DNA from: Chryseobacterium polytrichastri | GTDB lineage: Bacteria; Bacteroidota; Bacteroidia; Flavobacteriales; Weeksellaceae | Direction: 5' to 3' | NCBI RefSeq assembly: GCF_900142445.1 | Contig: NZ_FRAV01000004.1 | Span: 124,001 to 188,000 of the forward strand | DNA: 64,000 nt | Shown here: positions 5,532-52,660 of the stretch, piece after piece | Position numbering within the stretch: position 1 is the stretch's first letter | How the letters are laid out: each line of letters opens with the position of its first letter | Position numbers and translations under genes: made by a program | Notes under the pieces: model-generated | Told to the model about the DNA's origin: nothing | Database searches by the model: none | The model's input: only the letters and a program-made list of their open reading frames with translations

Positions 5532-5545
5532 TAAAAATAATATTT

Positions 5546-5567
5546 AACCACAAAAGTCACAAAAGAT
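5546..5567 (+). repeat. Left 22-bp terminal inverted repeat of the GxxExxY element
   Basis: It consists of AACCACAAAAG plus a near-repeat ACAAAAG, spaced by two bases. Its reverse complement differs from the right end at one base. Confidence 0.8.
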
Positions 5568-5570
5568 TTT

Positions 5571-5978
5571 ATGATTACACAATCTTATCTGACAGATTTA
5601 ACATATAAGATAAATGGCGCCTGCATAGAAGTTCACAAAATTCTTGGCGCAGGCTTATTAGAAAGTGTTTATCATAAATGTTTGGAAGAAGAATTTAGAT
5701 TGAGAAATATCAATTTTAAATCTGAATTTAAAATTCCTATAGTTTATAAAGGAAAAGAAATTAATTGTGATTTCTTTTGTGATTTTTTGGTTGAAGATTT
5801 AATTGTTGTTGAATTGAAAGCAGTTTCTATATTAAATGAAATTCATCGAGCACAACTTCTAAATTATATTAATTTGATGAAAAAGCCTAAAGGAATTTTA
5901 GTAAATTTTAATGTGAAAAATTTATACAATGACGGGCAAGAAACTTTTGTAAATAAATATTACGATATGCTTTTTTGA
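5571..5978 (+). CDS. GxxExxY protein, PD-(D/E)XK nuclease-like
   Basis: The 135-residue protein carries the family signature G28-L-L-E31-S-V-Y34 in its first helix. It then has a PD-(D/E)XK-like core: Asp71 on one strand (CDFLVED), E81-L-K83 on the next, and a following helix with HRAQLLNYI (Q95). This layout suits a small nuclease-type fold, and the catalytic residues look intact. GxxExxY proteins are widespread in Bacteroidetes and have no settled function that I know of. The gene fills the space between two 22-bp inverted repeats, which suggests that it travels or is maintained together with them. The ATG at 5571 is the natural start, immediately after the left repeat. Confidence 0.85.
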   Translation: MITQSYLTDLTYKINGACIEVHKILGAGLLESVYHKCLEEEFRLRNINFKSEFKIPIVYKGKEINCDFFCDFLVEDLIVVELKAVSILNEIHRAQLLNYINLMKKPKGILVNFNVKNLYNDGQETFVNKYYDMLF

Positions 5979-6015
5979 TCTTAAAAGAATTAAGGCTCTT
6001 CATCTTAGACTAATT

Positions 6016-6037
6016 ATCTTTTGTGTCTTTTGTGGTT
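6016..6037 (-). repeat. Right 22-bp terminal inverted repeat of the GxxExxY element
   Basis: It is the reverse complement of the left repeat with one mismatch (T against A at the eleventh base). It lies 38 bp after the GxxExxY stop codon. Confidence 0.8.
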
Positions 6038-6125
6038 CAAAATCTCATCAATACATAAGCTTTCAAACTTAAAATATTTTCTTAAAAAATAAACTTCTGC
6101 CCTTTTCTTGGTCAAAACAAAAAAT

Positions 6126-46926: not shown

Positions 46927-47189
46927 GTTGGGCAAACGCGAAGACGCAATGTTAATTGAAAACTCATTATTTTAAGACACAAAGATTTTATCTTCGATAA
47001 AATTGATTAGGTATAAAAGTACCATCTATTTATCATTTCGTAAGAATCTTAATCTCGCAAATAAAGCAGCATCGAGATTCCTCCGGAATGGAAAGTTTGA
47101 TGGAAAGTAAAGAAATGAAAAATCTATAATTTTCTTGCGCCTTAAAACAAAATAATAAAAAATTCTTTGCGCCTTTGCGTTTATCCAAC
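46927..47189. mobile_element. Non-coding inverted-repeat element with nested arms (GCG type, 263 bp)
   Basis: The outer arms (46927-46951, core AAACGCGAAGACGCAATG, and 47165-47189, core CTTTGCGCCTTTGCGTTT) match at 20 of 25 bases when inverted. Inner arms TTTTAAGACACAAAGATTTT (46970-46989) and 47128-47147 match at 14 of 20. The middle has an extragenic repeat fragment (47074-47090) and no gene. It lies between two pirin genes. It resembles a gene-less version of the GxxExxY-type elements with a different end sequence. Confidence 0.45.
47074..47090. repeat. Extragenic repeat fragment GAGATTCCTCCGGAATG
   Basis: This segment, with ATTCC/GGAAT arms, is typical of an extragenic repeat family; it lies inside the inverted-repeat element. 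Confidence 0.4.
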
Positions 47190-52386: not shown

Positions 52387-52430
52387 GCTTTAAATTTATT
52401 ATTAAGCATGTTTAAGGTAACTTAAAAACT

Positions 52431-52618
52431 AACCACAAAAGGTACAAAAGCTATTATTGAATCATTTAAAGTTTAGCTTTTTTGAAAACAAAGCTTGCAA
52501 AAGAATAATATTTCGACTCCGCTCAATATGCAAAGATTTTTTTACTTGTGTGTTCTTGTTTGCATTTTATGATGAACTTCAATAACTCAAGTGTTAATCT
52601 TTTGCCTCTTTTGTGGTT
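52431..52618. mobile_element. Gene-less inverted-repeat element related to the GxxExxY element (188 bp)
   Basis: The left end (52431-52452, AACCACAAAAGGTACAAAAG...) matches the GxxExxY element's left end at 19 of 22 bases. The right end (52597-52618, ending CTCTTTTGTGGTT) matches its right end at 20 of 22. The two ends match each other inverted at 18 of 22. Between them are 144 bp without a gene, including TTTCGACTCCGCTCAATATG, another repeat-like phrase. It may be a deletion derivative of the same element. Confidence 0.5.
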
Positions 52619-52660
52619 AAAATAAAAATTTAAATATTCATTATCAAAAAACTATTTACC

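Follow-up and report, generated by a model that had tools for sequence, protein, structure and literature searches.

The closest described counterpart of the locus presented here is the RAYT/REPIN arrangement, whose features we take from excerpts of PMC2817692 and PMC8049555. In these accounts the RAYT gene lies between two inverted repeats that co-diverge with its protein, the presence of the gene tracks the abundance of its cognate repeat, and the gene is single-copy, vertically inherited, almost never carried on plasmids and quicker to change than its neighbours, with gene-less repeats occurring as inverted doublets as well as in tandem and solitary copies. The RAYT protein is a Y1/HUH tyrosine transposase, and the REP is an imperfect palindrome headed by GT(A/G)G. 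Excerpts of PMC3733652 describe GTAG- and CGTC-tagged REPs as palindromic repeats that are scattered and frequently paired in inverted orientation, Planctomycetes included, and say of the CGTC-tagged class that it is without a dedicated transposase. Further points of comparison are offered by IS4/5 elements and MITEs, with their terminal inverted repeats and target duplications, and by the Cas4/RecB-like nucleases.

Our analysis concerns a 64,000-nucleotide stretch of the Chryseobacterium polytrichastri genome, hereafter the window, in which a gene of the GxxExxY family (PF13366) sits between inverted arms. In the literature searched, which comprised titles, abstract openings and text passages, with subscription papers and preprints outside its scope, no assigned role was found for this large family and no paper tied it to repeats. 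Gene and repeats appear to be complementary parts of a single, so far undescribed system. As far as the excerpts describe RAYTs, GxxExxY is not one, yet it is arranged like one, because the features of arrangement and inheritance are found here and the enzyme class and the REP head are not.

Inverted arms around GxxExxY genes

The first-pass annotation had reported near-perfect 22-bp inverted repeats enclosing a single small GxxExxY gene with apparently intact active-site residues, and each part of that description held. The left arm (AACCACAAAAGTCACAAAAGAT) and the right arm (given as its reverse complement, AACCACAAAAGACACAAAAGAT) agree at 21 of 22 positions, and the repeat tool lengthens the pair to 28 nt at 89% identity (Table 1). 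Between them lies one intact ORF, its start codon just inside the left arm, that matches PF13366 at 1.7e-38 and TIGR04256 (GxxExxY) at 6.7e-40 and retains D71, E81 and K83; PF13366 is the sole domain detected in the protein, and the Y1/HUH tyrosine transposase domain (PF01797) was not found in it. Aligning the upstream with the downstream flank gives a score of 26, against a top score of 24 among 324 shifted controls, and ACCACAAAAGNCACAAAAG at up to three mismatches has four matches within the window against 0.14 expected. The regulated hairpin suggested in the first-pass annotation may exist: the 512-nt region of the locus folds with its own two arms pairing (z -4.64), though inverted repeats tend to pair by construction.

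Table 1. Positions, within the window, of the GxxExxY gene, its arms and two gene-less elements
Feature	Position	Strand	Remarks
Left arm of gene-bearing unit	5546..5567	+	inverted repeat reaches 5540-5567; 99% pairwise identity, 12 orthologous loci
GxxExxY gene, 135 aa, PD-(D/E)XK (PF13366, TIGR04256)	5571..5978	+	Cas4-like fold by prediction
Right arm of gene-bearing unit	6016..6037	-	inverted repeat reaches 6016-6043; 97% pairwise identity, 12 orthologous loci
Gene-less element, arms resembling another GxxExxY family of the same genome (L005 type)	46927..47189		limits by eye
Gene-less element, same arms as the window gene (52431-52450, 52599-52618)	52404..52641		limits by eye

Bracketing is widespread in the genus. 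In 40 genomes, 37 of which hold a match above the family cut-off, 129 loci with a tblastn match were reduced by duplicate removal to 119 distinct genes or fragments, most fragments below about 110 bits being left out, and 300 nt upstream were compared with 300 nt downstream; 324 shifted windows supplied the control, their 99th percentile serving as threshold. Sixty-eight of the 119 exceed this threshold. When flanks of unlike loci are mispaired (952 pairs), the scores tail off more slowly and their 99th percentile rises to 31.5, which we read as same-clade genes sharing arms; a cruder first test that took mispaired flanks as its control placed 6 of 34 loci above its 99th percentile. Because orthologues are not independent, loci were counted as well as genes: the 110 intact genes occupy 14 loci, at 13 of which at least one gene passes, and arm-type repeats were counted at 12, the q5 locus being left out because 1 of its 16 genes passes and that one is not arm-like. 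None of the three q6c genes passes. One GxxExxY clade (MTENELSYKIIGAA...), present at a single locus in 16 genomes of the genus, is without arm-type repeats and is a candidate for a gene that lost its arms or never needed them. The C. polytrichastri genome itself holds five GxxExxY genes, each between inverted arms of different sequence and all above threshold. One of its genes (L004 1486-1866) has an in-frame stop and is still bracketed by well matched arms.

The arrangement extends well beyond the genus. Among the best 80 of 580 matches, which represent 80 named loci and in which the closest named relatives are from Chryseobacterium, 78 loci were testable with at least 150 nt on each side; 54 of these lie above the 99th percentile of 301 controls (28 above the highest control) and 24 below it. 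Passing loci belong to Bacteroidota, Planctomycetota, Verrucomicrobiota, Chloroflexota, Acidobacteriota, Desulfobacteraceae, Gammaproteobacteria, Cloacimonadota, Sumerlaeota, TA06, Methanothrix and a Methanosarcinales archaeon, while neither of the two cyanobacterial loci scanned passes, one having too little sequence on one flank. A Planctomycetota set yielded 30 loci, 5 of which were skipped because contig ends cut them; of the 25 left, 23 score above the 99th percentile of 100 controls and 20 above the maximum control. It is in these proportions, at many loci and not at all, that GxxExxY shares with the RAYT of the excerpts a place between two inverted repeats, and its occurrence in archaea and many phyla differs from what they describe. 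The first-pass annotation had suggested that repeat and protein may form one unit, a proposal that would have collapsed into coincidence had other GxxExxY loci been free of the repeat. Inverted arms were instead found at many loci, both within the genus and in remote phyla, and copies without a gene lie scattered besides, which supports the view that repeat and protein belong together.

Arm sequences and inheritance of the gene

The arms share a grammar, namely ACC followed by two or three units, with the inverse on the other side. The units, for example CACAGAG, CACGAAG, CGCAGAG, CACATAG and CATATAAG, recur with a period of about 8-10 nt; several genus families fit this grammar only loosely, and the q1c and q1d arms contain an extra small palindrome. 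These direct units beginning with ACC differ from the palindromic REP and its GT(A/G)G head as characterised in the excerpts, GTGG being confined, in the arms, to the outermost part of the other strand. The arms likewise carry neither the GTAG nor the CGTC tag in the place that the excerpts of PMC3733652 describe, whereas dispersal and frequent inverted pairing, Planctomycetes included, are common to both.

Arm sequences differ from one protein clade to the next, and at the window locus three protein lineages across species carry three different arms, two of these lineages being 54-59% identical to the window protein and possessing nested outer and inner arms. This is the form taken here by the co-divergence of repeat and protein that the excerpts report for RAYTs. 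Both arms were located at 12 of 13 orthologous loci, the thirteenth having a decayed left arm. Across the 12, the left arm is 99% and the right arm 97% pairwise identical, values whose divergence is capped by a search motif allowing 2 mismatches, and the adjoining 20-30 nt are 41-51% identical in ungapped comparison. At this one orthologous locus, then, the arms stay conserved while the spacers drift, with the left arm lying anywhere from 23 to 193 nt upstream of the start.

Within the genus GxxExxY is a resident gene that stays at its loci. Each arm clade occupies one orthologous place, and the mobile unit envisaged in the first-pass annotation was, in the sense of a recently mobile gene unit, rejected for the genus on the ground that genes of the same arm clade share flanking genes; the purifying selection, near-absence from plasmids and absence from phages described below contradict it further. 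Older duplication or movement between loci may have occurred, the nearest proteins at different loci being 65-78% identical. In the window lineage ten orthologues have a median dN/dS of about 0.04 (synonymous substitutions have reached saturation in 14 of the 45 pairs), which on these sequence comparisons indicates purifying selection. At this one locus, 17 of 20 species show lower conservation for the GxxExxY protein than for either neighbour, a likeness to the fast-changing RAYT gene of the excerpts. Of 72,556 plasmid records only 8 gave a GxxExxY match, so that the single-copy, vertically inherited and almost plasmid-free character reported there for RAYTs has its parallel here, as regards vertical inheritance in the genus. 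None of 50,697 phage records matched a query that was a Bacteroidaceae relative, and an excerpt of PMC12085832 lists one algal virus as encoding a GxxExxY protein.

Across 40 species the window locus holds the gene in many, a decayed gene in some and none in others. Of the survey of flanks and empty sites that the first-pass annotation had proposed, the first half turned up inverted repeats at many loci. At the window locus, gene-free species hold scars or other repeats in place of a readable clean empty site or a target duplication of the gene-bearing copy; species are mostly some 74-86% identical there at the DNA level. The fah intergenic region of nine sequences examined, from species lacking the GxxExxY gene, holds another dispersed repeat family, GATGCTTCGAC...CATGACA...GAAGCATC.

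Gene-less copies and their movement

The arms also occur on their own. In the window an inverted arm pair with the arms of the gene (52431-52618), which makes up the other two of the four ACCACAAAAGNCACAAAAG matches, has no GxxExxY gene inside; folded as DNA, the element reaches z -2.36, with 5 of 200 shuffles equally good, and its outer ends, whose limits were set by eye, correspond to degenerate versions of the AARCYTGTTTAAACT-like termini that bound the recent copies discussed below. The second gene-less element of the window has three matches to q4 arm motifs at up to three mismatches, against none for the reversed control. Throughout the C. polytrichastri genome AACCACAAARGNNACAAAAG is found at one mismatch 130 times (68 + 62), and the backwards pattern not at all. 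Among 20 genomes or loci chosen mainly for arms fitting CRCRRAGNNCRCRRAG, 13 were enriched in gene-less copies (at least 15 matches and three times the reversed control) and 7 had little excess. A Methanosarcinales genome has 117 arm matches against 4 for the reversed control; of 20 sites picked there, for closely spaced inverted matches and with the gene itself included, 19 are gene-less and fold as hairpins, and three gene-less sites folded as DNA gave z -5.25, -3.30 and -5.75. Three archaeal hairpins (L303, L304, L306) occupy an identical position within surroundings that are themselves repeated, their flanks being almost the same. In a gammaproteobacterial genome, where PF13366 finds a single match, the arms score 372 matches against 2. 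Gene-less copies are laid out as inverted doublets, tandem arrays and solitary units, as reported for REPs in the RAYT/REPIN excerpts. In genome G026 the q2 family forms inverted pairs in only two of 20 stretches, many copies being solitary or tandem, and in six of its sequences q2-family arms are lined up in arrays of one orientation, spaced about 136 to 300 nt apart.

Copy number follows the gene. Across 149 Planctomycetota genomes the median excess of arm matches is 13.5 with a GxxExxY match (n=74) and 2.0 without one (n=75; p=1.9e-6), control counts being alike at 8 and 9, and strong enrichment is seen in 27 of 74 gene-positive against 5 of 75 gene-negative genomes. Within the genus, copies of three arm families are commoner where the gene is present (p=0.008, 0.001 and 0.0001, with gene holders assigned by us); in both correlations the genomes are related and not independent. 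Two genus genomes without a GxxExxY gene have 0 matches against 0 in the control (G029) and 12 against 3 (G019). This tracking of repeat abundance by gene presence resembles that reported for RAYTs in the excerpts, with exceptions: G017 has 74 q1-type matches and no q1-type gene, and five repeat-rich planctomycetes (G107, G095, G118, G158 and G173) have no gene by PF13366 search, a result that disposes of missed genes as the cause. Gene loss after establishment of the repeats would, we infer, explain all six. One of the five planctomycetes, G107, has 225 arm-type matches against 0 in the control; here the gene may have been lost, or the repeats may be served by another partner.

Some gene-less copies are transposed units. 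In the C. polytrichastri genome 22 of them are bounded by AARCYTGTTTAAACT-like ends and flanked by 3-bp duplications, which agree at 70% of positions where mispaired sites agree at 38% and were equalled in 0 of 100 permutations, whereas other gene-less copies of the same genome are without these ends. The same ends stand just before a DUF4096 IS4/5-family transposase gene that is cut by two contig ends (fragments L275 1-312 on C83 and L276 1-320 on C50, with AAACCTGTTTAAACT ends), the second fragment scoring just below the Pfam cut-off, and this transposase is the likely mover of the recent copies. A 45-bp near-perfect palindrome at about L278 1725-1769 consists of two IS ends of that kind alone. 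In an archaeon, 378,431 bases contain nine units with GAGACTTTTT-type ends and 8-bp duplications that match at 8, 8, 8, 8, 7, 6, 6, 3 and 3 positions (mispaired mean 1.85, maximum 6), two of the nine lacking a matching duplication, and the G017 copies have TTGTTTAAACTTTTT ends in common. From organism to organism, then, ends and duplication lengths change, whereas the inner arms go with the clade of the GxxExxY protein, and such MITE-like ends are absent around the gene-bearing copies in which they were sought, the window flanks and the archaeal gene copy, where an old gene-bearing copy may have lost them. Because ends and duplications differ by organism and are unseen at those gene-bearing copies, we do not claim GxxExxY as their transposase, and GxxExxY as the sole mover is weakened by the IS4/5-type ends and by the 3-bp and 8-bp duplications. 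As regards the mobile-unit idea of the first-pass annotation, movement did occur for a part of the gene-less copies, but in two genomes it took place within MITE-like units, and the ends of these units were not found flanking the gene. MITE-like copies with target duplications are also a departure from RAYT/REPIN as the excerpts present it.

A predicted Cas4-like nuclease and its arms

The AlphaFold2 model of the window protein has a mean pLDDT of 96.7. Its closest solved chain is SSO0001 (4ic1), which we take to be a Cas4, at a Foldseek E of 0.0091, probability 1.00 and TM 0.53; no Foldseek match to the model fell under E 0.001. VIA gave the same chain Z 9.3 over 102 residues, the sole chain at Z 8 or more, and a fold missing from the structural comparisons made could still be nearer. 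Weak agreement comes from sequence profiles, in which 4ic1 is reached at E 0.94 and the PADLOC Cas4 models at E 2.7e-4. The active site is well kept among 108 intact genus genes, with D71 in 105, E81 in 108 and K83, Q95 and Y99 in 107 each, the last two presumably forming the QxxxY motif of RecB/Cas4 type. GxxExxY thus resembles Cas4/RecB-like nucleases in predicted fold and in its D-E-K and QxxxY residues, and differs from them in its length of about 110-140 aa, its bracketing by arms and its want of a conserved cysteine, none occurring in an invariant or nearly invariant column of 76 aligned proteins. Cas4 has iron-sulphur cluster cysteines. Judged by the model, a nicking or trimming activity of Cas4/RecB type is the natural expectation. 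In enzyme class, as a PD-(D/E)XK nuclease, the protein stands apart from the tyrosine transposase that the excerpts describe for RAYTs, and unlike the transposases of IS4/5 elements it is no DDE enzyme.

Taken together, we lean towards reading GxxExxY and its arms as a resident system of nuclease and hairpin repeats that works like RAYT/REPIN with an unrelated enzyme, and we consider it somewhat probable that the resident nuclease acts on its own arm family. The protein, probably acting as a multimer, would recognise the arm units of 8-10 nt, and would probably do so when inverted arms form a hairpin; its predicted Cas4/RecB-like site would nick or trim at the arms, which could keep arms and protein matched and could help gene-less copies to persist or be copied, sometimes together with ordinary transposases. 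Tentatively, and at a little short of an even chance, GxxExxY nucleases and CACAGAG-type arms may be a second, independently built counterpart of RAYT/REPIN across bacteria and archaea, in which a Cas4-like nuclease recognises and maintains its own hairpin repeats and resident DDE transposases help some copies along.

The most serious competing account, which we regard as unlikely while keeping it in view, is that DDE transposases moved the gene-less copies as classical MITEs, with GxxExxY a passenger or accessory nuclease of the inner arms that does not maintain them. Likeness to IS4/5 elements and MITEs in terminal inverted repeats and target duplications speaks for it, as do the 22 C. polytrichastri copies, the DUF4096 gene preceded by their ends, the nine archaeal units and the shared ends in G017. 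It fits less well with ends and duplication lengths that are organism-specific while inner arms track the protein clade, with the lack of such ends at the gene-bearing copies checked and at other gene-less copies of the C. polytrichastri genome, with the solitary and tandem copies of G026 and with a copy number that goes with gene presence. The arms could also regulate the gene that they flank, as an operator or a protein-bound mRNA hairpin, leaving dispersed copies as by-products or a regulon. Their position near the start codon and past the stop, their conservation beside drifting spacers and the pairing of arms in the folded transcript region would suit such a role, which we nevertheless hold to be improbable, since the variable distance of the left arm from the start is unusual for an operator and self-regulation alone does not predict dispersed gene-less copies.

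A defence nuclease for which the arms mark self or serve as guides is more remote again: the Cas4-like fold and the weak PADLOC matches point in that direction, but those matches are to the acquisition nuclease Cas4 and to no dedicated GxxExxY system. That chance or low sequence complexity produced the inverted repeats as an artefact seems scarcely credible. The arms are short, purine-rich and partly simple, and a sizeable fraction of loci does not pass the threshold, yet the reversed-pattern and shifted-window controls, the high-GC planctomycete cases and the target duplications of gene-less units all speak against an artefact.

The link between GxxExxY and the arms provides a testable substrate for the protein and a candidate partner for the repeats, in bacteria and archaea alike. 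CACAGAG- and CACGAAG-type repeats are scattered over many genomes, with dozens to hundreds of gene-free copies in many gene carriers. If the protein acts on its arms, a REPIN-like arrangement would have arisen at least twice with unrelated enzymes, resident nucleases with populations of hairpin repeats would be a recurrent trait of chromosomes, and a Cas4-like core would be at work outside CRISPR adaptation.
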